Origin: a virus
DNA length: 24,822 nucleotides
Virus record (IMG/VR): IMGVR_UViG_3300037218_000009
Location: 1-24,822 of that record
Direction: 5' to 3' (one strand)
In this document: positions 2,030 to 15,488 of the stretch, in pieces
How the letters are laid out: each line of letters opens with the position of its first letter
Position numbering within the stretch: the stretch's first letter is position 1
The notes under the pieces: model-generated
Told to the model about the DNA's origin: nothing
What the model saw: only the letters and a program-made list of their open reading frames with translations
Database searches by the model: none
Translations under genes and position numbers: made by a program

Positions 2030-3898
2030 ATGGCTTACGCCGCCGATCGCTTCGACGCTGACGCCGTCGCTCATTACGAAATGGCGTCGGCCTCATTGCT
2101 GGCGCAGGCACCGGCACTTGCCAAGCAAGAGTGGTACGCGGACGACAATAAGAAGGGCTGGGCAGACTTCCGCCTCGAGCTCGAGCAACGGCTCTACGCG
2201 CTAAGGAATTGGCGCCTCTCCTGGTGGGAGCATTGGGCCAAGCTTGCCGAGGCGATCCTACCACGCCGCTATCACTGGCTGATCGTCCCTAACACAATGT
2301 CGAGAGGCCTGGCGATCAACCAGGCGATCAAGGATCCGACCGGCGCCCAGGCCGTGCGCGTCTGTACTGCCGGCATGCGCTCCGGCATCATGAGCTCCTC
2401 GCGCCCATGGTTCAAAATCAAACCGGGGATCCGTAACTATAAGCCTGATCGTGCCGCCGAACTTTGGTTCGAGCAAGTCGAGGACATGATCTATCGCGTG
2501 TTCTCGGGCTCGAATTACTATCAGTCCGCAACGCAGATGTTCGAGGATCTGATCGTATTCGGCACCGCGCCGAAAATCATGTACGAGGATCGCGACGATA
2601 TCATCCGCTGCTACAATCCCTGCGCTGGTGAGTATTACCTCGGCGCCGGATCAGACTTCCGCATCAACTCGTTCTACCGCACCTTCAACCTGACCGTGAT
2701 GCAATGCGTGCAGATGTTCGGGCTGGAGAACTGCCCGCCCGACGTCGCCGAGCTCTGGGAGAACAAGGGCGCCGGGCTGGAGACCGAGATCATTATCGCC
2801 CACGCCATCGAGCCGAATTTCTCGGCATCGATGCCAGGGCAAGCCCCAAATCTCGGCGTCATCCCCGGCAACTTCACCTATCGTGAGTATTACTGGACAT
2901 GGGGCCGCTATAGCGCCAAGCCGCTATCCATGCGCGGCTTCCGGCAGAAGCCGTTCATCGCGCCGCGCTGGTCGACCACATCGAACGATGCCTATGGCCG
3001 TTCCCCTGGGATGGATGCGCTGCCCGATATCCTGCAGCTTCACCTCATGACCGTGCGCCAGGCGGAAGCGATCGACAAGCTGGTGCGGCCGCCGATGCTC
3101 GCCGACAACTCCTTAAAAAACCAGCCCTCCTCGATCAACCCCGGCAAGGTGACCTTTACCGCCGACATATCGAAGGGCATGAAGTCGATCTACGATATCC
3201 GTCTCGATATCGAGCACATGAGCGCGCTGATCGAGAAGATCGAAGCCCGCTGCGGCAAGTGGTTCTTCAACGACCTGTTCCAGATGATGGATAACATCGA
3301 AGGGGTACAGCCGCGCAACGAGCTGGAGATCGCCGAACGCCGCGGCGAAAAGCTGCAAGTGCTCGGCCCGGTGGTCGAAGGCATCGAGAACGAGTTGCAC
3401 GACGATATCCTGCGCGTGATCGCCATCCTCAATCGCCGCCAGCTCCTTCCGGCAAAGCCGCCGAGCCTGATCGGCATTCCCCTCGAGATCGAATTCGACT
3501 CGATGATCGCCGTTGCCCAGCGCGCGGCCGAGAGCGCCACCATGGAACGCGGCATGACGATCGCAACGCAACTGGATAAGTCCTATCCCGACGAGCGTCC
3601 CGGCGATGTGATCGACAAGACCGGATGGCTTCGCGACTATCTCGAAAAATCGAACTTCCCGAAAAAGGACATGCGCGGCGACGACGAAGTCAAGCAGATC
3701 AAGGCCGCGCGCAACCAGGCCAATCAGGAAGCCGCGCAGAAGGCGCAGGCGATGCAAGCCGCAACGCATACCGCCCCGGCAGTTGCTTCGGCCGCAAAGG
3801 ACGCCAGCCAGATCGATACTGGCGGCCTCCTCAACGCTCTGCAGATCGCCGCCGGCCAGGGTGGCGCTGCGCCTGGCGCCACGGGGCTGTTGCAATGA
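2030..3898 (+). CDS. portal / head-to-tail connecting protein (T7 gp8-like)
   Basis: A 622-residue protein of the podovirus head-tail connector family, which forms the dodecameric ring at the capsid vertex for DNA entry and tail attachment. Residues about 59-80 hold the characteristic start of the family (LRNWRLSWWEHWAKLAEAILPR). This is followed by a TAGMRSGIMSSSRPWFKI block (near 118-135), a FEDLIVFGTAPKIMYED block, and further on a conserved MDALPDILQLHLMTVRQAEAIDKL helix region. An ERRGEKLQVLGPVVEGIENELHDDILRV helix lies in the C-terminal part. The last 70 residues are Ala/Gln-rich and probably flexible. The start is preceded by GAGAGA at a suitable distance. A roughly 50-residue N-terminal extension precedes the family core. 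No terminase gene is present just upstream, which is unusual for this gene order. Confidence 0.9.
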   Translation: MAYAADRFDADAVAHYEMASASLLAQAPALAKQEWYADDNKKGWADFRLELEQRLYALRNWRLSWWEHWAKLAEAILPRRYHWLIVPNTMSRGLAINQAIKDPTGAQAVRVCTAGMRSGIMSSSRPWFKIKPGIRNYKPDRAAELWFEQVEDMIYRVFSGSNYYQSATQMFEDLIVFGTAPKIMYEDRDDIIRCYNPCAGEYYLGAGSDFRINSFYRTFNLTVMQCVQMFGLENCPPDVAELWENKGAGLETEIIIAHAIEPNFSASMPGQAPNLGVIPGNFTYREYYWTWGRYSAKPLSMRGFRQKPFIAPRWSTTSNDAYGRSPGMDALPDILQLHLMTVRQAEAIDKLVRPPMLADNSLKNQPSSINPGKVTFTADISKGMKSIYDIRLDIEHMSALIEKIEARCGKWFFNDLFQMMDNIEGVQPRNELEIAERRGEKLQVLGPVVEGIENELHDDILRVIAILNRRQLLPAKPPSLIGIPLEIEFDSMIAVAQRAAESATMERGMTIATQLDKSYPDERPGDVIDKTGWLRDYLEKSNFPKKDMRGDDEVKQIKAARNQANQEAAQKAQAMQAATHTAPAVASAAKDASQIDTGGLLNALQIAAGQGGAAPGATGLLQ

Positions 3899-4161: not shown

Positions 4162-4560
4162 ATGGCGCTGACCGACGACGAAGGTAACGAACTGAGCGCG
4201 CTGAAAGGCAACGATAAGCCGCCGCTGCCTAATCTGCACGGGCAACCCGGCCAAGCTGGCGGTCCGCCTCTCGCCGACGTTCGGCAGGTTGCGACCTGGG
4301 ACGGCAAGAAGACCGTTCCGATTGCCCACGGCTTGCCAAGCCAGCGTGTCGACGATTATCCCGTCTCTGAGCCCAGCGCTTTCCGCCGCGTCTTCGAATA
4401 CGATATCATTCCCTGGAAAGACGAAGGTGGCCTTTCCGGCATGATCGCCTTCCTCAACGAGAAAGGCGCTGACGGCTGGGAAGCGTTCTATGTGGTGACC
4501 GGCCAGAATCCGAAGGACGGTATGCGGCATTTCATTCACTTCAAGCGGGAACTCGCATGA
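4162..4560 (+). CDS. hypothetical phage protein with DUF4177-like C-terminus
   Basis: A 132-residue protein. Residues 1-75 are polar, Gly/Pro-rich and probably disordered. Residues about 78-130 (FEYDIIPW, then LNEKGADGWEAFYVV, then HFIHFKREL) resemble the small alpha-beta DUF4177 pattern, in which an EYKV-like strand, a helix ending in GAEGWEL and a final strand form a compact fold of unknown function. AAGGA lies 13 bases upstream of the ATG, slightly far. The stop overlaps the next start (ATGA at 4557-4560), so the two genes are translationally coupled. No precise role can be assigned; neighbours suggest a head- or packaging-associated accessory protein. Confidence 0.7.
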   Translation: MALTDDEGNELSALKGNDKPPLPNLHGQPGQAGGPPLADVRQVATWDGKKTVPIAHGLPSQRVDDYPVSEPSAFRRVFEYDIIPWKDEGGLSGMIAFLNEKGADGWEAFYVVTGQNPKDGMRHFIHFKRELA

Positions 4561-5102
4561 CTGACGACAAAATCCTCGCGCCCGACGGCACCCCGGCCGA
4601 AGCGCCCAAACAACTGATCGAAGTCGATGCCCAAGGCGATCCGATCCGCCAGGGCACGCTCATGCTCGAGAAAGAATCCTACGAGCGCGTGATCGAGGGC
4701 TTGCGCATGATCTCGGATTCCTGCGCGCATCTGATCAAGCACGAGCCGGAAAGCGCTGATGTATGGCGCGGCTACTTGGTGCGCTTCGACAAGGCGCGAT
4801 TGATTTGCGTCCAATACGCCCGCCTCGGTCTCACCATGAAGGAAAAGGAAACGGGCGAAGTGCGCGGCGATCCGCTGCCGTGGAAGCAATGCCGCCAGCG
4901 CTTCCTCGATGGCGTGATCCAAGCTGCCGGTGGTTGCCGCCAGCTCGCGACCTGTCATCGTGGCGATATGTGGTGGACGCGCATGGCCGACGTGCTTGAC
5001 GAAATGGCGCGCAAGCTGCGTGGTCACCAGGCACTTGCCAAGCGCAAGGCGCTCGCCGCGAGAATGTCGCTGATTCTGCCGGAGCATTTGACGAGGCAAT
5101 GA
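4557..5102 (+). CDS. hypothetical phage protein
   Basis: A 181-residue, mostly helical protein with no family I recognise. An N-terminal acidic segment of about 30 residues precedes helices such as EKESYERVIEGLRMISDSCAH. A Cys/His cluster (LATCHRGDMWWTRMADVLDEMARKL, residues about 137-161) follows, and the C-terminus is Lys/Arg-rich. Both ends overlap neighbours by ATGA (4557-4560 and 5099-5102), placing it firmly in the coupled run of small genes between portal and scaffold. The WW and the Cys residues may be structural. Function unknown. Confidence 0.7.
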   Translation: MTDDKILAPDGTPAEAPKQLIEVDAQGDPIRQGTLMLEKESYERVIEGLRMISDSCAHLIKHEPESADVWRGYLVRFDKARLICVQYARLGLTMKEKETGEVRGDPLPWKQCRQRFLDGVIQAAGGCRQLATCHRGDMWWTRMADVLDEMARKLRGHQALAKRKALAARMSLILPEHLTRQ

Positions 5103-5275
5103 AACTTCCCCCGTGCGGCAAATGCGGGGTCTATCAGCGCGATGCACTCTTACCCGGATCTCCATCGTCCCCGGTGAAGTGTCCATCGCTTCCCCCGGTT
5201 CGTCGCGCCTGGGCTTTGCCGGCCGGGGGCGATGGAGGCTATGACCATGACAACGCTGCACCCTTCCACCTTTGA
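5099..5275 (+). CDS. 58-residue coupled ORF, possible leader for the Acb2-like gene
   Basis: ATG at 5099 overlaps the previous stop as ATGA and reads MKLPPCGKCGVYQRDALLPG, with a CxxC and a third Cys at residue 28, like the start of a small zinc ribbon. The rest is Pro/Gly-rich and the frame ends at 5275, inside the next gene. It may not make a stable protein: its translation would run through and open the hairpin at 5160-5237 that hides the next gene's ribosome site, so it could serve mainly as a coupling leader. Evidence is the overlap and position only. Confidence 0.4.
   Translation: MKLPPCGKCGVYQRDALLPGSPSSPVKCPSLPPVRRAWALPAGGDGGYDHDNAAPFHL
5160..5237 (+). promoter_or_regulatory. ribosome-site-sequestering hairpin with two alternative arms
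   Basis: CCGGGGGCGATGGAG (5223-5237) contains the GGAG of the ribosome site used by the following gene. It can pair with CTCCATCGTCCCCGG (5160-5174) over 15 bases with a single G-U pair. A second near-copy of that arm (TCCATCG at 5182-5188 plus CCCCCGG at 5192-5198, separated by CTT) can pair with the same strand over 14 bases with a 3-base bulge. Both structures would block initiation at 5247. Translation of the overlapping upstream ORF would melt them. Confidence 0.55.
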
Positions 5276-5477
5276 ATATTTGAAGCCGACCACAGGCCAA
5301 GTCGATGTAATGGCGCATCTGCGCGGGCTTTCGGCCTCATATGCCGCGGCCATCGATCAGGCGCTCGATGACGGTCCCGACAAAACCTATATCCTGCGGC
5401 GCATCCGCGAGACGGCAATGTGGATCAATGTTGCACTGACGCGAAACGCCGACGGATCGCCGCGGGCCAAGCCATGA
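5247..5477 (+). CDS. Acb2/Tad1-hairpin-like protein, putative cyclic-nucleotide sponge
   Basis: A 76-residue helical-hairpin protein. The pattern TFEYLKPTTGQ, then MAHLRGLSASYAAAI, then DGPDKTYILRRIRETAMWINVALTR matches the order of conserved features in the Acb2/Tad1 hairpin family (F-x-Y-x-x-P near the start, an LR-led helix, a short loop, and a second helix ending in MW-x-N-x-x-x-x-R). Characterised members bind cyclic oligonucleotides made by CBASS or Thoeris defence and stop the signal. The start at 5247 is chosen because GGAGG (5234-5238) lies exactly 8 bases upstream; in-frame ATGs at 5232 and 5241 are too close to it. The stop overlaps the next gene as ATGA. The family call is from pattern memory. 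Which nucleotide it binds, if any, is unknown, and the whole family is not proven to be anti-defence. Confidence 0.65.
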   Translation: MTTLHPSTFEYLKPTTGQVDVMAHLRGLSASYAAAIDQALDDGPDKTYILRRIRETAMWINVALTRNADGSPRAKP

Positions 5478-5761
5478 AAAAAGGTAAGCGCAAACATAGG
5501 ACGCTACGCATTCTTGAGGGCGGAGTTCCTTTGAAAAAGCCGAAGCTTCCGCGCCACCGACACCTGAAGGAAGCGCAAGCGGCCTTTGACGCACTCGGGA
5601 GATTGATCAGGGTATTGCCGATGGTGGAAAAGCAGCGCGACGATATTCGCCATGCCATGGGTGTGATCGAGCGCGCCTTCAAAGGCCACAGGTTTAAGTT
5701 GCCGAGCGGAACAACCCTTACGCTCTCCGATTGGGCCCAGCGGGTGGTTTGGCCGCGATGA
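5474..5761 (+). CDS. hypothetical basic phage protein
   Basis: A 95-residue protein starting at ATG 5474, which overlaps the previous stop as ATGA; a GTG further upstream (5420) is in frame but lies inside the preceding gene and is unlikely. The first 33 residues are strongly basic (MKKGKRKHRTLRILEGG, KKPKLPRHRH). A helical middle (KEAQAAFDALGRLIRVLPMVEKQ) and a C-terminal FKLPSGTTLTLSDWAQRVV segment follow. The basic head suggests nucleic-acid contact but no domain is recognised. Its stop in turn overlaps the next start (ATGA at 5758). Confidence 0.6.
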   Translation: MKKGKRKHRTLRILEGGVPLKKPKLPRHRHLKEAQAAFDALGRLIRVLPMVEKQRDDIRHAMGVIERAFKGHRFKLPSGTTLTLSDWAQRVVWPR

Positions 5762-6228
5762 GCGAAGATAGTTTTCGCGACGCCTTCCTGCGCGATCGTG
5801 TTCGCGAACTCAATAAGTTACCGTTCCGGACCGTCCGTGAGAACGGCATGGTGCACGTCGACGCTGCCGTCGATGCTGCCTTCCGCAAGGCTCTGCTCGA
5901 GGGCATTCCGCTTTCGCTGCGCAGCAAAATGCGCGAGGCTTTAGCGGCTTCGCCTGGCGCCAAGGCCAACGAGCATTCGATCCGCTATTTCGGTGGACCG
6001 GACAAGATAGCCGAGATCAAGAACCGGATTGCCCCGCTCCTGCTCGAACTCAACCACTTCCTCACCACCGCGCGCAATCTGCCCGGCCTGTTCGACTGGC
6101 TACAGGTGACCAACTTCGGCGCCGACTATAGGATGATCAAGGCATTCCTCGCCTGGGCGGAATTGGCGGAGACGCCATCGCTTGGGCAAGTGCCGGCCCA
6201 GCCGCCGCGGTCCGTCACCTATGGCTGA
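5758..6228 (+). CDS. hypothetical phage protein
   Basis: A 156-residue protein, start ATG 5758 overlapping the previous stop (ATGA). It is mainly helical and mixed-charge: DRVRELNKLPFRTVRENG at the N-terminus, a KNRIAPLLLELNHFLTTARNL helix near residues 85-105, and a FLAWAELAE helix near the end, followed by a short Pro-rich tail. No family recognised. It lies directly before and overlaps the Bbp19-like gene by 8 bases, so a role in head assembly or packaging is the simplest inference. Confidence 0.65.
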   Translation: MSEDSFRDAFLRDRVRELNKLPFRTVRENGMVHVDAAVDAAFRKALLEGIPLSLRSKMREALAASPGAKANEHSIRYFGGPDKIAEIKNRIAPLLLELNHFLTTARNLPGLFDWLQVTNFGADYRMIKAFLAWAELAETPSLGQVPAQPPRSVTYG

Positions 6229-6694: not shown

Positions 6695-6741
6695 ATACTT
6701 TGTTGAAAATGTGCTAAGGAAAATCCCTCTGGGTGATTCGG

Positions 6742-7839
6742 ATGCTATCGAAATTCCACGATCGCTATCTGCCCTATTACGCCGCGCCTGACGCGGCCCC
6801 TGGCACGCCAGTTCCAGCGGCTGACGCTGCGCCCGCTGCAAGCCCTATTCCGGCGCCGGCGGCAGCCCCTGCCGCTGCGGCGCAGCCGAGTGGGGATTCT
6901 TCCCCATCGGCGTCGCCTATTGCCGCGACGGACGCGGCTTTGCCAGCTTCTACGAGCCCCGGCGCGTCGGCACCGGCCACGCCGGCCGAGGCAGCGCCCG
7001 CTGCGCCGCCTGCAAAGACTGATGGCGCGGCACCTGCCGCAGCCGATAAAGCTCCCCCCGAATCCAAACCGTCTCTCCTCGAGGCGGCTAAGAGCAAGCC
7101 CAAAGCCGACGCCAAGGACGCGAAAGCGCCTACGGTCGACGCCAAGGCTGGCTCGGATACCAAGCCGGCTCCGGCCGAAGCTGACAAAGCTGCCGATGGC
7201 AAAGACGCCAAGCCCGAGGGTGACAAGCCCGCGGACAAGGTTGCCGATGCCAAAGCAGATGACGCAGCCAAGGCGCCCGACCCGGCGAAAGAAGCCACGG
7301 CCATAGCGCCCCCGGCTCCGTTGAAGTATGAAGCGTTCAAGGTTCCCGACGGCATCAAGCTCGACGACAAGGAAGTTGCGAAATTCACCGATATCATCGG
7401 TGCTCGCCAGATTCCGCAAGAGGACGCGCAAAAGCTGCTCGACCTCTACGTCGAAGAGCGCAAAGGCGATGCCGAGCGTGCGCGTACCGAGCAGCGTCGT
7501 GTATGGGACGCGCTCAACGATACCTGGAAGACGGAATTGCGGAAGAATCCCGAGTTGGGAGGCAGCCGCCTCGAGACGTCGCTGTCCATGGCCAAAGCCG
7601 TGGTTGAGGAATTTCTCTCGCCCGAACAGGCGCGGGTTTACCTCGCTCACACCACGAACAACGGCATGGGCAACTTCATCGAGCAAGTCCGGCTTCTGCA
7701 CAATATCGGCAAGGCCTTGAACATCTTCGAAGACGGAATCGTGCCGAGCCTCCCGAAAGCGCCGAAGATCCAAAAGGGTCCAGGCAATCGCGGCTGGTAC
7801 GATAAGAGCCCAGATTTAGGCGGCGCCCAAACCTCGTAA
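6742..7839 (+). CDS. capsid scaffolding / assembly protein
   Basis: A protein of about 365 residues placed immediately before the major capsid gene, the usual position of the scaffold (Bbp18-like). Residues about 15-190 are a low-complexity Ala/Pro/Lys/Asp-rich segment (repeats such as APAAAP, KADAKDAK, DKPADK), probably disordered. The C-terminal part (about 195-340) is a helical core: LKYEAFKVPDGIKLDDKEVAKFTD, EDAQKLLDLYVEERK and a long QRRVWDALNDTWKTELR helix. That C-terminal pattern recurs in phage proteins annotated as scaffold or assembly peptidase; I see no catalytic triad, so scaffold is preferred. ATG 6742 has GGTGA 5 bases upstream; GTG 6733 (AAGGA 12 bases upstream) is an alternative. 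The Ala/Pro run may vary in length between strains. Confidence 0.7.
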   Translation: MLSKFHDRYLPYYAAPDAAPGTPVPAADAAPAASPIPAPAAAPAAAAQPSGDSSPSASPIAATDAALPASTSPGASAPATPAEAAPAAPPAKTDGAAPAAADKAPPESKPSLLEAAKSKPKADAKDAKAPTVDAKAGSDTKPAPAEADKAADGKDAKPEGDKPADKVADAKADDAAKAPDPAKEATAIAPPAPLKYEAFKVPDGIKLDDKEVAKFTDIIGARQIPQEDAQKLLDLYVEERKGDAERARTEQRRVWDALNDTWKTELRKNPELGGSRLETSLSMAKAVVEEFLSPEQARVYLAHTTNNGMGNFIEQVRLLHNIGKALNIFEDGIVPSLPKAPKIQKGPGNRGWYDKSPDLGGAQTS

Positions 7840-7907
7840 GCCGGTTTCTTTCGTTAGCGTTTCCATTTTTCACACTCTCCGCGGCAATGGAGAACAGCGC
7901 GATTCCG

Positions 7908-7928
7908 GTCATGCCCGAGGCATGATCT
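7908..7928 (+). promoter_or_regulatory. 5' hairpin just upstream of the major capsid ribosome site
   Basis: GGTCATGCC (7908-7916) and GGCATGATC (7920-7928) pair over 9 bases (one G-U) around a CGA loop. The stem ends 4 bases before the GGAG (7933-7936) that serves the capsid ATG at 7944. There is no T-run, so it is not a terminator. A role in mRNA stability or 5' end processing for this very highly expressed gene is plausible. Confidence 0.45.
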
Positions 7929-7943
7929 TACGGAGTCGACCCC

Positions 7944-8981
7944 ATGGCCTATCTGACGCTTGCCGATATCGGGCGCATGACGGATCCCGACGGCAAAATC
8001 GCCGACATGGCGGAGCTGCTCTCGCAATGCAACGAAATGGTCGACGATATGCCGATGGTCGAGGCCAATGGTCTCACCACGCACGTCACCACGGTGCGCA
8101 CTGCGCTGCCCAAGGGCACCTATATCCGCTACTACCAGGGAACGCCCTACTCGAAATCCAACGCCGCACAACTCGAATTCGGCATGTCGCTGCTGCGCGA
8201 TTACTCGCAGGTCGACAAGGAGCTCTGCAAACTCGGCGGCCAGGAAAGTGTGCGGCGCGAAAAAGAGGACGTCGCGCACATGGAAGGAATTTCGCAGCAA
8301 CAGTCGACTACGCTGTGCTACGGCAATTCCTGGACAACGCCCGAGCAGTTCACCGGCTGGGCGCCGTTCTTCAACACGGTCTCGACCGCTACAGCCCAGA
8401 ACGCCGTCAACGTATTCGATTGTGGTGGAACAGGTTCCAGCAATGCCTCGATCTGGATGATCGGCTGGGGCGATTCGACTGCCTACGGCATCTACCCGAA
8501 AGGCTCCAAGGGCGGCCTCGTGTTCGAAGACAAGGGCGATATCGTGCCCGGCTTCGATGCCAGCCAGAACCGTTTCGAAGCCTACACGTCGTTGTTCCAG
8601 TGGCAGCTCGGCCTGGTGGTCGAGGATTGGCGCTATACCGTTCGCCTCTGCAACATCGACACCACGACTGCGGGACTGCTCGGCCCGACGCCCCCCGATC
8701 TCTTCGCCATCCTGGCGCGTGCGATCGTCCGGCTGCCGACCGCTGGCCGCACTGTCTCTGGCATCACCAAGACCGATGCTCCGGACAAGATGGCCCCGGC
8801 CATCCGGCTCAAGATCTATTGCGACCGTACCGTGCGGGCTTCGCTCGACATCCAAGCTATCCGCGACAAGAACGTGCTGTTGTCGCCGACGGATTATGCC
8901 GGACGGCCGATCGTCAATTGGCGCAATGTGCCGATCGGCGTGCAGGACTCGCTCCTCAATACCGAAGCGCGCGTCGTCTAA
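7944..8981 (+). CDS. major capsid protein (BPP-1 Bbp17-like)
   Basis: A 345-residue major head protein. Recognisable stretches include MAYLTLADIGRMTDPDGKI at the start, LPKGTYIRYYQGTPYSKS, a GWGDSTAYGIYPKGSKGGL segment (near residues 172-192), LVVEDWRYTVRLCNIDT, and a C-terminal IVNWRNVPIGVQDSLLNTEA. This pattern is typical of the capsid family of BPP-1-like podoviruses. By cryoEM the BPP-1 protein has an HK97-like fold with permuted topology, so the same is expected here. GGAG lies 7 bases before the ATG, and a stable hairpin precedes it. The cement gene follows after 63 bases and both end at a strong terminator. Confidence 0.85.
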   Translation: MAYLTLADIGRMTDPDGKIADMAELLSQCNEMVDDMPMVEANGLTTHVTTVRTALPKGTYIRYYQGTPYSKSNAAQLEFGMSLLRDYSQVDKELCKLGGQESVRREKEDVAHMEGISQQQSTTLCYGNSWTTPEQFTGWAPFFNTVSTATAQNAVNVFDCGGTGSSNASIWMIGWGDSTAYGIYPKGSKGGLVFEDKGDIVPGFDASQNRFEAYTSLFQWQLGLVVEDWRYTVRLCNIDTTTAGLLGPTPPDLFAILARAIVRLPTAGRTVSGITKTDAPDKMAPAIRLKIYCDRTVRASLDIQAIRDKNVLLSPTDYAGRPIVNWRNVPIGVQDSLLNTEARVV

Positions 8982-12198: not shown

Positions 12199-13503
12199 AT
12201 GCGCAGGTTATTGATCGTTCTCGCCGCCATCGGCATTGCCTTCGCCGCTTGGTCGAATCCCGCCTTCGCACAAGGCGGCTTCGGCAATGTGACGGGCTAT
12301 GCGATCACTACCTGCGGATCGCCGCCGGTCGCCTATAAGCCGTCGACGTCGACGCAAAACCGGCCGGGCCCCTTCACCATCGATGCGAACGGGCTTCTTT
12401 GCGTCAATGCGACGGTTAGCGTCAGCGCCAGCATTGCCGGATTTGCGCCCGGAGGCAGCTACGCCAATCTGACATCGAATGCGACGTCGCATGACGCAGC
12501 GCTTCCGACTGGCGCCGTCGATATCGCGTTCAATACCGGCACGACTGCGGTCTCGTGCGAACTCTCGGTCGGCGCCGGGACGGCGGTTGCCAGTGAGAAC
12601 GTCATCCAGCCGGGAAGTTGGCTTGCTTTCACGGTCGGCTCCAACACGCATACCGCCTGTATCAACCAAGCTGGTGACTCCGCATCGAACGTCGTGGTGT
12701 TTTCCGGGGGTACTGGTCTGCCGACCGGAGCTGGGGGCGGATCCGGTAGCGGTGGCGGCGGTGGCAACGTCAACCTCACGCAGATACTTAGTGCAGCGCC
12801 GAGCGCTACCAACCCACTATGGGTCTCCCCGGCAACAGGAGCGACATTCCCAGTCTCAGGCACGTTCTGGCAAACCACGCAACCAGTTTCTCTGACGTCC
12901 ACGACGATCACTGGAACGGTTGCGGTAACGCAGGCGTCCGCTTCAATAGCAAGCGGCGCATTCGCTTCTGGGTCTATCTCAAGCGGCGCTGTAGCATCTG
13001 GAGCCTTCGCCAGCGGCGCCATTGCCAGCGGTGCGATAGCGAGTGGGGCTATCGTAAGCGGTGGTGACGTGACCGAGGGCACTACGGCAGAGACGACCGT
13101 GTACGCTGGCTCTGGCGGCTGTACGGTCGTTGCATGTCTCAAGGGTCTTTATGCTGGTATTGTCGGCTCAATTCCGGCTGGCACGAATACAATCGGTGCA
13201 GCTATCGTTCAGGGTCAGGCCGCCGCCGCCCGGAATTTCCCCGGCTGCACGGTTGGTGCGACGACCACGAATTGCCTTGCCGCCTCGACCGCTACGCAGT
13301 TCCTGCAAATCCAGAACACATCTACCAGTGCTACCATTGCCTGCGCCTTCGGCGCCGCTGGCGTGCTCAACTCAAAAACCTCAGTGCAGCTTGCAGTCGG
13401 GCAGTCTGCTTCGTGGAACCCAAACACTGGCGGCGTTCCGACCGGGCAGCTTAATTGCATCGCAAGCGCAGGTTCAACGCCGCTCTATGTGGAGTGGCTG
13501 TAA
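12199..13503 (+). CDS. exported fibre-like protein with SGA repeats
   Basis: A 434-residue protein with signal peptide (MRRLLIVLAAIGIAFAAWSNPAFA, cleavage near residue 24) and ribosome site GGAG 8 bases before the ATG. The mature part is Gly/Ser/Thr/Val-rich and beta-like. Residues about 60-170 form one domain, a Gly-rich linker (GGGSGSGGGGGNV) lies near 178-190, and a degenerate pentapeptide repeat (SGAFA, SGSIS, SGAVA, SGAIA) follows at about 250-289. The C-terminal domain contains four Cys (GGCTVVACL, then GCTVGATTTNC, with one more near IACAFG). Such repeats are common in phage fibre shafts. The stop overlaps the next start (TAATG at 13501-13505). Tail fibre is the best call; a secreted adhesin of the lysogen is the alternative. 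Confidence 0.65.
   Translation: MRRLLIVLAAIGIAFAAWSNPAFAQGGFGNVTGYAITTCGSPPVAYKPSTSTQNRPGPFTIDANGLLCVNATVSVSASIAGFAPGGSYANLTSNATSHDAALPTGAVDIAFNTGTTAVSCELSVGAGTAVASENVIQPGSWLAFTVGSNTHTACINQAGDSASNVVVFSGGTGLPTGAGGGSGSGGGGGNVNLTQILSAAPSATNPLWVSPATGATFPVSGTFWQTTQPVSLTSTTITGTVAVTQASASIASGAFASGSISSGAVASGAFASGAIASGAIASGAIVSGGDVTEGTTAETTVYAGSGGCTVVACLKGLYAGIVGSIPAGTNTIGAAIVQGQAAAARNFPGCTVGATTTNCLAASTATQFLQIQNTSTSATIACAFGAAGVLNSKTSVQLAVGQSASWNPNTGGVPTGQLNCIASAGSTPLYVEWL
12946..13065 (+). repeat. degenerate 15-base coding repeat (SGA-x-A shaft)
   Basis: Eight imperfect units of 15 bases encode S-G-A/S-F/I/V-A/S. The protein pattern is kept while the third codon positions differ between units (AGCGGC, TCTGGG, AGCGGT, AGTGGG). 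This suggests old duplication held by protein selection rather than a recent slippage array. Confidence 0.6.
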
Positions 13504-15488
13504 TGCGTTTTGTTCTTGCGATCCTCGTCGCTCTATTTGCGCCCGCTATTGCGCAGGCTCAGATCGGTCCTGCGCCTGGTGGCGGCGGCAGCGGCATCAC
13601 GGCGCTAACTGGCGATGTGACGGCATCCGGCACGGGTTCTGTGGCGGCAACCGTCGCAGCGATTGCTGGCGTCGCCGTCGGCACACCGACCGGAACAACC
13701 AATGTGGTGTTTTCAAACTCTCCCACGTTGGTCTCGCCGACTTTGGGCAATGCAGCGGCGACCTCGTTCGGCCTATCCGGCAACATCAGCGCCGCAGCTT
13801 GGACGACCAGTGGTATCCGCTACAAGAACGCCGCGGTGACGCTGACTGACACATCGTCAAGCGGAACGGTCGCCACGGTTTACAACGACGTGTGGGGTGG
13901 CAATACCAATGCGGCGTCGAGCGCGACGACCTATACGAACGCTTTTGGCAGCTATTTCAAGGCTCCGATTGCCGGGACAAATGTTACGTTCACCAACAAA
14001 TACGCGGTAGGTGTTGACAGTCTCTTTTCGCCAGGGGTGATTACCGATCAGCAAACTACCACGACTGGCGGCCTCGCGGTAGCATTCACGAACGGCAGCG
14101 CCGTCATTACGGCAACCAACACTCTCGTCGTCAATCAACCCATATATTTCCAGAACAGCGGCGGGGCGCTACCAACTAACTTCACTTCCGGCACCGTCTA
14201 TTATGTGATTGCTACTGGGCTATCCACCAGCCAGTTTGAAGTTGCGACTTCTTCGGGGGGCACTGGTGTCCTTGCTGGTAGCGCCGGCTCTGGAACCCAG
14301 ACCGCCTCTCCAGTCACTCAAACAGACGCGGTTATCCTGCAAAATTCCACCGCAGCGACGGCCTCAATCCCAGTACAGTGGTCGCCTAGTTTGCACTTCA
14401 TTGGGCAGGGCTGGAAAACAACGGCGACGGCGGCGTCGCAGACCGTCGATTGGCTTATCACAAATCAACCGATCCAGGGAACAACCGCGCCGACAACCAA
14501 TCTTGTTATCTCCGAACAGATTAATGGTGGCGGCTATTCTACGGCGGCAAGTATCGCCGCGGCGGGGACTACCGGCACTGCCGCTGGCATCACCATTCCT
14601 TTGACAAACGCTACAGTCATAACACGTTATTTCGGCTTTAGCGGACCTGCCGTAACTGGTGGTGGCTGCGGTATCGGAACAAATACGAATGGTGCCGGCG
14701 CTCTTGATCTTATGTGTGGTGGTTCGTCGTTGCTTAATCTTAACACCGGCACGGTGCAAATTGAAACCACGTCAACAGGAGCTTTCGCCTGGGCAACCGG
14801 GTCTGATCCGAGCTCACAAAGTCCACAAACCTGGCTTACTAGCCCGGCTTCGGCGACTGTCCAATTCGGCGCGGCCAACGCTGCTTCGCCAATTAATCAA
14901 ACGGTTCAGTCGCAGGGCGTCATTGTTGGCACGACTAGCAATGGCGCTGGCGGGAATCTGTTAATACAGCCCGGTGTCTCAACCGGAAATGCAACATCAT
15001 CGCAATTAAATTTTGATACCTGGGTTGTAACCTCATCCGGTACGGCGACGCAGACGCAAACTCTAACGATGCGATTAACTAACGGCGCGGTGCTAATGCC
15101 CAGTCTGGCGGCATCCTCTGCGGCCACCACTGGCACAGTATGCTGGACGACAGGCGGCAACCTGACAGTTGATACTACGCTCGCATGCCTGGCCTCTCTT
15201 GAAGAGCTGAAAGATATTCATCAGCCGCTTAGTGGCGCGCTTGCGGAAGTCTCAAGGTTGGAACCGTTTTCGTTTTCTTGGAAAGATGGGACTCCGCAAC
15301 GAGCTGGTGACACTCAAGAGCAGGTTGGATTTGGGGCGCATCAGGTTGCCGCTGTTGATCCGCGATTGGTGTCCTATTCCGATGATGGAAAACTGCTAGG
15401 GGTTCGCTATCAGGAAATGACGGCGCTTTTGGTTCAGGCCATCAAAGAGCAGCAAGCCGAGATCGAAGAACTAAAGCGGTCGCGCTAA
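13503..15488 (+). CDS. exported tail fibre with C-terminal S74 chaperone domain
   Basis: A 661-residue protein starting at ATG 13503, which shares one base with the previous stop. A signal peptide (MRFVLAILVALFAPAIAQA, cleavage near residue 19) is followed by a fibre linker (GGGGSGITALTGDVTASGTG). A beta domain with an inserted FCCH-like module spans about residues 192-269 (TNTLVVNQPIYF to STSQFEVATSSGG), and a GQGWKTTATAASQTVDW segment follows. The C-terminal about 100 residues are a peptidase S74 intramolecular chaperone, with Ser565 and Lys570 in ASLEELKD and the later FSFSWKDGT, GFGAHQV and LGVRYQEMTALLVQAIKEQ blocks. The Ser/Lys pair needed for self-cleavage is kept, but the Arg commonly found between them is Glu. 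The S74 domain normally trimerises fibres and is then released. Confidence 0.8.
   Translation: MRFVLAILVALFAPAIAQAQIGPAPGGGGSGITALTGDVTASGTGSVAATVAAIAGVAVGTPTGTTNVVFSNSPTLVSPTLGNAAATSFGLSGNISAAAWTTSGIRYKNAAVTLTDTSSSGTVATVYNDVWGGNTNAASSATTYTNAFGSYFKAPIAGTNVTFTNKYAVGVDSLFSPGVITDQQTTTTGGLAVAFTNGSAVITATNTLVVNQPIYFQNSGGALPTNFTSGTVYYVIATGLSTSQFEVATSSGGTGVLAGSAGSGTQTASPVTQTDAVILQNSTAATASIPVQWSPSLHFIGQGWKTTATAASQTVDWLITNQPIQGTTAPTTNLVISEQINGGGYSTAASIAAAGTTGTAAGITIPLTNATVITRYFGFSGPAVTGGGCGIGTNTNGAGALDLMCGGSSLLNLNTGTVQIETTSTGAFAWATGSDPSSQSPQTWLTSPASATVQFGAANAASPINQTVQSQGVIVGTTSNGAGGNLLIQPGVSTGNATSSQLNFDTWVVTSSGTATQTQTLTMRLTNGAVLMPSLAASSAATTGTVCWTTGGNLTVDTTLACLASLEELKDIHQPLSGALAEVSRLEPFSFSWKDGTPQRAGDTQEQVGFGAHQVAAVDPRLVSYSDDGKLLGVRYQEMTALLVQAIKEQQAEIEELKRSR

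Follow-up and report, generated by a model that had tools for sequence, protein, structure and literature searches.

The question raised by this locus is what a small gene, encoding only 76 residues, is doing among the head genes of a phage. The window (the whole stretch of DNA that was analysed, 24,822 nucleotides) is a 24.8-kb virus record with the late genes of a podovirus that resembles BPP-1. Homologues of Bbp19 and Bbp16 are found in it, the Bbp16 match falling just under its cut-off, and the closest named phages, judged by capsid, are less than 60% identical. At the left edge (19–561, + strand) lies a transposase domain of the IS1595/ISXO2 type (PF12762, E 2.3e-37).

A sequence-only reading of the same DNA had proposed a nucleotide sponge of the Acb2/Tad1 kind, built into the head operon. 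The answer reached here differs in part. The gene probably encodes an Acb2-like sponge, and is best described as accessory cargo, inserted in a slot of the head operon behind a conserved leader that is predicted to form a pseudoknot. The features concerned are collected in Table 1.

Table 1. Features of the window discussed in the text, with the evidence behind each
Feature	Coordinates	Strand	Evidence
Portal (head-to-tail connecting protein)	2030–3898	+	PF12236, E 2.8e-107
Head-operon gene 5' of the cargo slot, conserved, function not assigned	4557–5102	+	Locus comparison
Structured RNA leader, predicted H-type pseudoknot	5107–5244	+	Covariance model R1, 116 bits
Leader 5' hairpin; 7-nt loop CGGCAAA at 5116–5122	5109–5129	+	
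GCGCGA, 5' strand of second pseudoknot helix	5137–5142	+	
CTCCATCGTCCCCGG, strand pairing with the Shine-Dalgarno strand	5160–5174	+	
TCGCGC, 3' strand of second pseudoknot helix	5203–5208	+	
TTTGCCG, pairs with the 5' hairpin loop (pseudoknot helix)	5215–5221	+	
CCGGGGGCGATGGAG, 3' strand with most of the Shine-Dalgarno (GGAGG, 5234–5238)	5223–5237	+	
Acb2-like nucleotide-sponge gene (predicted), 76 aa	5247–5477	+	PF24729 homology, AlphaFold2, dN/dS
Second cargo gene, overlapping the end of the sponge gene; L179 homologue directly after leader	5474–5761	+	Locus comparison
Head-operon gene 3' of the slot, conserved, function not assigned	5758–6228	+	Locus comparison
Scaffold/protease-like gene	6733–7839		phrog_458
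Sister leader before the major capsid gene: hairpin, loop CGGCAA, then stem pairing GGAG (7932–7935)	7876–7943	+	Weak R1 match, motif
Major head protein	7944–8981	+	phrog_212

The gene and its reading frame

ORF calling returns the gene where it had been placed, from ATG 5247 to TGA 5477. Two further in-frame ATGs lie upstream, at 5232 and 5241. The start at 5247 is preferred because the GGAGG of the Shine-Dalgarno is only 8 nt away. The stop codon overlaps the start of the next gene in the tetranucleotide ATGA.

The motif order described earlier is present in full: F9-x-Y11-x-x-P14, L25-R26, DGPDK at 42–46 and M58-W59-x-N61. Conservation was judged in an alignment of 26 rows, consisting of the window protein and 25 of the 32 loci from a scan of viral contigs; L002 (identical to the window) and L020 and L024–L028 (repeats of others) were left out. 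Invariant in it are T8, F9, P14, Q18, M22, D45, K46, R51, R54, A57, M58, W59, R66 and G70. Residues Y11 and R26 each reach at least 90%, and L033 has a histidine at the position of Y11.

By the Nei-Gojobori method, five of six relatives give dN/dS values of 0.092, 0.085, 0.148, 0.213 and 0.225; the comparison with the sixth, L007, is saturated. The gene is real, conserved and intact, and these ratios place it under purifying selection. Within its phage group only the window and one twin contig hold the gene at this place, as could be expected of a decaying or non-functional passenger. Given an open frame and a dN/dS of 0.09–0.23 against five of six relatives, such a passenger is very improbable.

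Family relationships

The window protein matches the Acb2/Tad1 hairpin family PF24729 with E 3.7e-4 over 56 residues, at 21.1 bits against a curated gathering cut-off of 27, and phrog_1454, a family with no assigned function, with E 9.7e-7. It has 32 relatives in the viral-contig scan. A search with the 26-row alignment identified 320 relatives among 350 candidate stretches, the best 80 being kept.

All 26 aligned relatives match PF24729 at E-values up to 1, the best at 1.6e-12. When ten were scanned singly, eight exceeded the cut-off, with scores from 28.7 (L003) to 47.9 bits (L017), and the other two fell below it at 24.7 and 26.7. The same model matches T4 Vs.4, which is Acb2, at 71.4 bits and a fragment of PaMx33 Acb2 at 66.5. 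In hhalign, the 26 relatives were set against six T4-type Acb2 proteins in the expected register, with a probability of only 18% and P 0.0013.

Routes to solved Acb2 by sequence are weak. Neither phmmer with the window protein nor hmmsearch with the 26-row profile found an Acb2 chain in the PDB, the top match being a designed helical bundle, and PADLOC gave only weak, chance-like matches. With the window protein as query, no relatives were found in plasmids, in genome contigs, or in named phages at E 0.01; L017 as query matched 126 phage records, all below 60% identity. Deposited homologues exist and are filed as hypothetical proteins. Acb2 of a Microbacterium phage has already been announced (PMC13348362).

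Taken over the family and the model described below, the window protein is judged to be homologous to the Acb2/Tad1 hairpin family, as a divergent homologue within a known sponge class. The family assignment of the sequence-only reading therefore holds as homology, eight of ten relatives lying above the cut-off, but its proposed profile search leaves this particular sequence short, at 21.1 bits against 27. Because of this score the protein is called Acb2-like and homologous, and is not filed as a member of PF24729.

Two named phages carry hairpin genes of their own. In Gordonia phage UBSmoodge (L305) an Acb2/Tad1 hairpin gene scoring 55.8 bits, annotated as hypothetical, directly follows the portal gene. 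In Mycobacterium phage ScoobyDoobyDoo (L286:2968–3411) one protein combines the hairpin with about 80 further residues to which no function is assigned.

Predicted fold and ligand pocket

AlphaFold2, given the 26-row alignment, places helices at residues 6–12, 16–39 and 44–65 (pLDDT 91.5, pTM 0.71). The predicted shape is that of the Acb2 protomer, a short N-terminal helix followed by the two-helix hairpin that had been expected. The model contains no strand of three or more residues, so this helical protein of 76 residues is without the N-terminal antiparallel beta-sheet of Tad1. Tad1 membership is ruled out on this ground, and the former label "Acb2/Tad1-like" is narrowed to Acb2-like.

Structural matches to the PDB are weak in Foldseek, where 7uq2 (E 4.2) and 8h2x (E 5.1) appear amid unrelated bundles and Acb2 chains fall at E 4–7. 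In VIA-align, chain 7uq2_D (T4 Vs.4 with cGAMP) takes second rank with Z 6.5 and rmsd 2.9 over 64 aligned residues, and the Acb2 entries 8h2j and 8h2x both have Z 5.8 (rmsd 3.3 and 3.0), values of Z that are common for helical bundles. The three Acb2 chains superpose with an rmsd of 2.9–3.3 over 61–65 residues, and the unrelated rows near them mostly have a larger one. A search of predicted viral structures gave 170 matches, and the top 11 all bear the name of Acb2/Tad1 hairpin proteins, at probability 0.97–1.00 and with weak E-values of 0.022–0.21.

When nine diverse members were aligned, T4 Acb2 and the PaMx33 fragment among them, the only invariant columns were Y11 and M58. The R26 column holds arginine or lysine in all nine; the basic residue of PaMx33 Acb2 aligned with R26 is K26, which is presumably a ligand contact. 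T4 Acb2 Y8 aligns with Y11, and T4 F82 falls on T65 in the register chosen here, so that F82 is not kept. For T4 Acb2, binding of cyclic dinucleotides is reported to be disrupted by the mutation Y8A, and F82 to stack on the ligand (PMC12657218). The tyrosine and the basic residue of a putative cyclic-dinucleotide pocket are thus kept in these nine diverse members.

An Acb2 homologue could also bind some other ligand, such as gcADPR, a linear nucleotide, nucleic acid or protein, or act in another way altogether. The tight DGPDK turn and the invariant R51 and R54 would suit such a change, since at these places T4 and PaMx33 differ in residues and carry a longer insert (again in the register chosen here), and Tad1 is reported to bind gcADPR besides cyclic nucleotides (PMC12043709). 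Retention of the pocket tyrosine and basic residue in nine of nine diverse members makes this unlikely, and binding of cyclic nucleotides is the preferred reading.

Distribution and gene neighbourhood

The gene had been described as lying between portal and scaffold. It does so, but adjoins neither, and the further claim that it is built into the head operon fails when loci are compared.

One comparison starts from the sponge. In a tblastn search with 14 window proteins on 110 sponge-carrying loci, the same neighbourhood was seen only in two loci of one contig; one other locus (L058) shares the capsid and Bbp16 genes, and four share a portal at a different distance. No neighbour family occurs in more than nine of the 73 distinct sponge loci, counted within five ORFs on either side at a blastp E of 1e-5, a count that remoter homologies would escape. 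Relatives of 54–84% identity sit amid unrelated genes.

The reverse comparison starts from the head genes. It covers 98 distinct loci, 19 found by the window portal and 80 retained out of 126 found by the capsid, with one shared. A six-frame search of them with the sponge model matched only L114 and L133, which belong to one twin contig that is identical to the window here, with no other match up to E 10. Both genes that flank the slot are present in 43 of the 98 loci. The resulting 31 distinct slots measure from -45 to 1150 bases and differ in content, and the sponge is in one of the 31 (L114). Among 20 related records, some of them incomplete, 19 are without the sponge. The remaining record, G005, has it at 13363–13578 with the capsid gene near 43.2–44.2 kb, that is, in another part of the genome. 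An arrangement without the sponge is seen in L179, where the leader is directly followed by a homologue of the gene that lies 3' of the sponge here (alignment z 17.3).

A fixed structural gene is rejected on this pattern, with the sponge confined to a twin contig among 98 loci and to one of 20 related records. The gene is, judged from the loci compared, patchy accessory cargo in a variable slot and not a fixed head gene: one of 31 slots holds it, and the 73 sponge loci show no common neighbourhood. The same distribution bears on the idea that the gene makes a small protein for head assembly or packaging, with no more than the helical hairpin in common with Acb2. Position speaks for that idea: the gene belongs to the head operon, its end overlaps the gene that follows, and its leader is related to that of the capsid gene; the Gordonia phage homologue is likewise next to a portal gene. 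Its absence from all but two twin-contig loci of the portal and MCP sample and from 19 of 20 related records, and the unrelated surroundings of relatives that are 54–84% identical, make a head protein quite improbable. Accessory cargo remains the preferred reading.

Two observations concern other cargo. Near the sponge of G005, L037:11756–15100 (- strand) encodes a protein of 1115 residues that carries PF00300, a histidine-phosphatase domain, and weakly matches an ADP-ribosyltransferase. In the window, the gene at 4162–4560, 5' of the slot, resembles by eye the one that immediately follows the leader in L135 (L135:3823 onward), and cargo may thus move around the slot.

The structured RNA leader

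When slots are placed side by side, conservation is seen in the non-coding DNA that precedes the sponge, and the gene that follows varies. This leader opens with a 5' hairpin, followed by GCGCGA, CTCCATCGTCCCCGG and a further hairpin; next come TCGCGC, a short stretch able to pair with the first loop, CCGG...CGATGGAG and the start codon. Such an order of strands implies a pseudoknot of the H type, with the Shine-Dalgarno contained in its second stem.

A covariance model, R1, was built from 16 full elements with the pseudoknots excluded. Seven divergent sequences (L121, L123, L125, L126, L129, L132 and L154, at 43–55 bits) were left out of the alignment; in six of them, all except L129, the Shine-Dalgarno stem is kept by eye and the 5' hairpin is seemingly absent. 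The search with R1 covered 68 sources, part of the loci, and gave 30 matches of at least 43 bits, contig duplicates counted.

In the alignment of 16 rows, 36 pairs are formed in 97.0% of cases and stem 2 in 96.9%. Twelve pairs are doubly changed, compared with 4.1 in shuffles (0 of 500), and the two pseudoknot helices, which are not in the model, are paired in 194 of 194 cells with six doubly changed pairs against 2.0 (0 of 500), although relatedness of the leader sequences inflates both shuffle tests. Sliding the pseudoknot strands by one to three columns lowers pairing to 21–54%. Seven loop forms (CAGCAA, CAGCTA, CGGCTA, CGGCTAA, CGGCAAA, CACCAA and CAGGAA) each retain their partner. Pairing of the 5' hairpin loop with its partner was found by script in 15 of 16 rows, and in L135 by eye and in the pseudoknot count. 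The covariation points to a leader that folds as an H-type pseudoknot and pairs the Shine-Dalgarno of the sponge gene.

Other accounts of the leader were tried and set aside. A chance GC-rich hairpin is rejected because of the strong covariation, despite a single-sequence folding z of -1.04. An HDV-like ribozyme has a similar strand order and, by eye, an unfit spacing. An alternative pairing of 5160–5167 with an upstream GCGATG would free the Shine-Dalgarno; by eye it fits well in roughly half of the 16 rows and poorly in the window.

Rfam gives no match in the window at its gathering score and none up to E 5 at 5050–5300; the best in relatives, in L120 and L119 (E 4.1 and 0.15), are far below the cut-offs. 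No such leader was found in the openly accessible literature, mostly at the level of titles. As far as these searches reach, the leader RNA and the arrangement of leader plus cargo slot are new. In a pattern search, 61 matches in genome contigs were taken, as a group, to be chance, and 16 were viral, one of them (L224) without the element by eye.

Small genes with no assigned function stand directly behind the leader in the slots of L115, L119, L134, L138, L162 and L213, and those of L115 and L162 have no PHROG match. These genes are possible further anti-defence cargo.

Sister leaders

Weak R1 matches also occur just 5' of the capsid gene in many relatives. The layout there is a hairpin with a similar loop, GCGCGA or similar, a stem pairing GGAG and the capsid ATG. 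Capsid-leader loops differ from genome to genome, yet each remains complementary to the 3' strand of the slot leader in its own genome.

Full pairing between the capsid-leader loop and the 3' segment of its own genome's slot leader is possible in 14 of 14 genomes, 11 of them by Watson-Crick pairs only, a result favoured by relatedness and by the choice of capsid leaders with a motif close to the slot loops. With permuted loop partners the mean was 4.9, and 14 was never reached in 5000. The 14 are the genomes with both leaders; L120 and L213 are without an MCP start there.

Over the 60 kb of record G002 that were examined, there are four such hairpins. Two further leaders of the hairpin-GCGCGA type stand before other genes in it (L287 positions 9665 and 3938, - strand). 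A phage of this kind may own a small regulon of such leaders.

A tentative proposal, given somewhat less than even weight, is that a leader family absent from Rfam gates the translation of head genes, with a pseudoknotted member ahead of a cargo slot and simpler sisters ahead of the capsid gene and others. Its leaders may interact in trans or share a phage factor, and the sponge would have been captured behind one of them, tying counter-defence to capsid synthesis.

Proposed mechanism and significance

In the proposed mechanism, the helical hairpins would assemble into an oligomer, which in Acb2 is a hexamer. In pockets between protomers, Y11 would stack on a base and R26 contact a phosphate. 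Cyclic di- or trinucleotides would be held uncut, and effectors of the CBASS type would stay off.

The gene itself would have been inserted directly behind the leader. Since the leader is predicted to pair its Shine-Dalgarno, the sponge would adopt the translation control of head genes and be made with the capsid proteins. The trigger could be a phage protein (as gp32 is for T4 gene 32), an RNA contact between leaders, or a small molecule. Phages without acb2 are reported to have carried capsid mutations that aid escape from CBASS (PMC10419184), and making sponge and capsid together would accordingly be sensible. If this is true, counter-defence is timed to the synthesis of capsid proteins, which can trigger defence.

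The homology adds to the known anti-defence sponges a divergent subfamily from metagenomic phages, one that curated cut-offs can miss. A patchy gene in a fixed slot suggests a way for a phage to take a counter-defence gene into its late operon while leaving the operon unbroken, and a slot behind the leader would give any newcomer ready-made timing. Genes in the same slot of other phages, mostly with no assigned function, are candidates for further anti-defence functions. The leader is a predicted regulatory RNA with strong covariation, undescribed as far as was searched.

Comparison with known systems

The closest known system is Acb2 (T4 Vs.4; PaMx33 p26), the anti-CBASS sponge. It belongs to the same Pfam family, combines an N-terminal helix with two antiparallel helices, and is likewise a small accessory phage gene. 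The pocket tyrosine is kept, lysine is replaced by arginine here, and the MW motif of T4 is retained. Identity is 12–18% by structure or sequence. The window protein has a tight turn where Acb2 has about 20 residues between the helices, and T4 F82 has no counterpart in it. The T4 gene lies in the vs region, whereas the gene described here, known from sequence and model, stands behind a structured leader in the head operon.

Tad1, the anti-Thoeris sponge, is reported to have an N-terminal antiparallel beta-sheet (PMC12043709), unlike the model of the window protein. The C-terminal helical hairpin family PF24729 is common to both.

For the leader, the SAM-II and preQ1 riboswitches offer one parallel. 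They are H-type pseudoknots with the Shine-Dalgarno in the second stem, as is predicted for the leader. The leader differs in its length of about 135 nt, in an extra 5' hairpin whose loop would form part of stem 1, and in having no useful Rfam score.

The mRNA pseudoknot of gene 32 in T4 and RB69 is another phage leader pseudoknot 5' of a start codon, there serving as a translational operator. In T4 it is reported to lie 67 nt upstream and to nucleate cooperative binding of gp32 (PMC3014915). In the leader described here, the Shine-Dalgarno itself would be in a pseudoknot stem, different genes follow the leader in different phages, and the hairpin recurs before the capsid gene.
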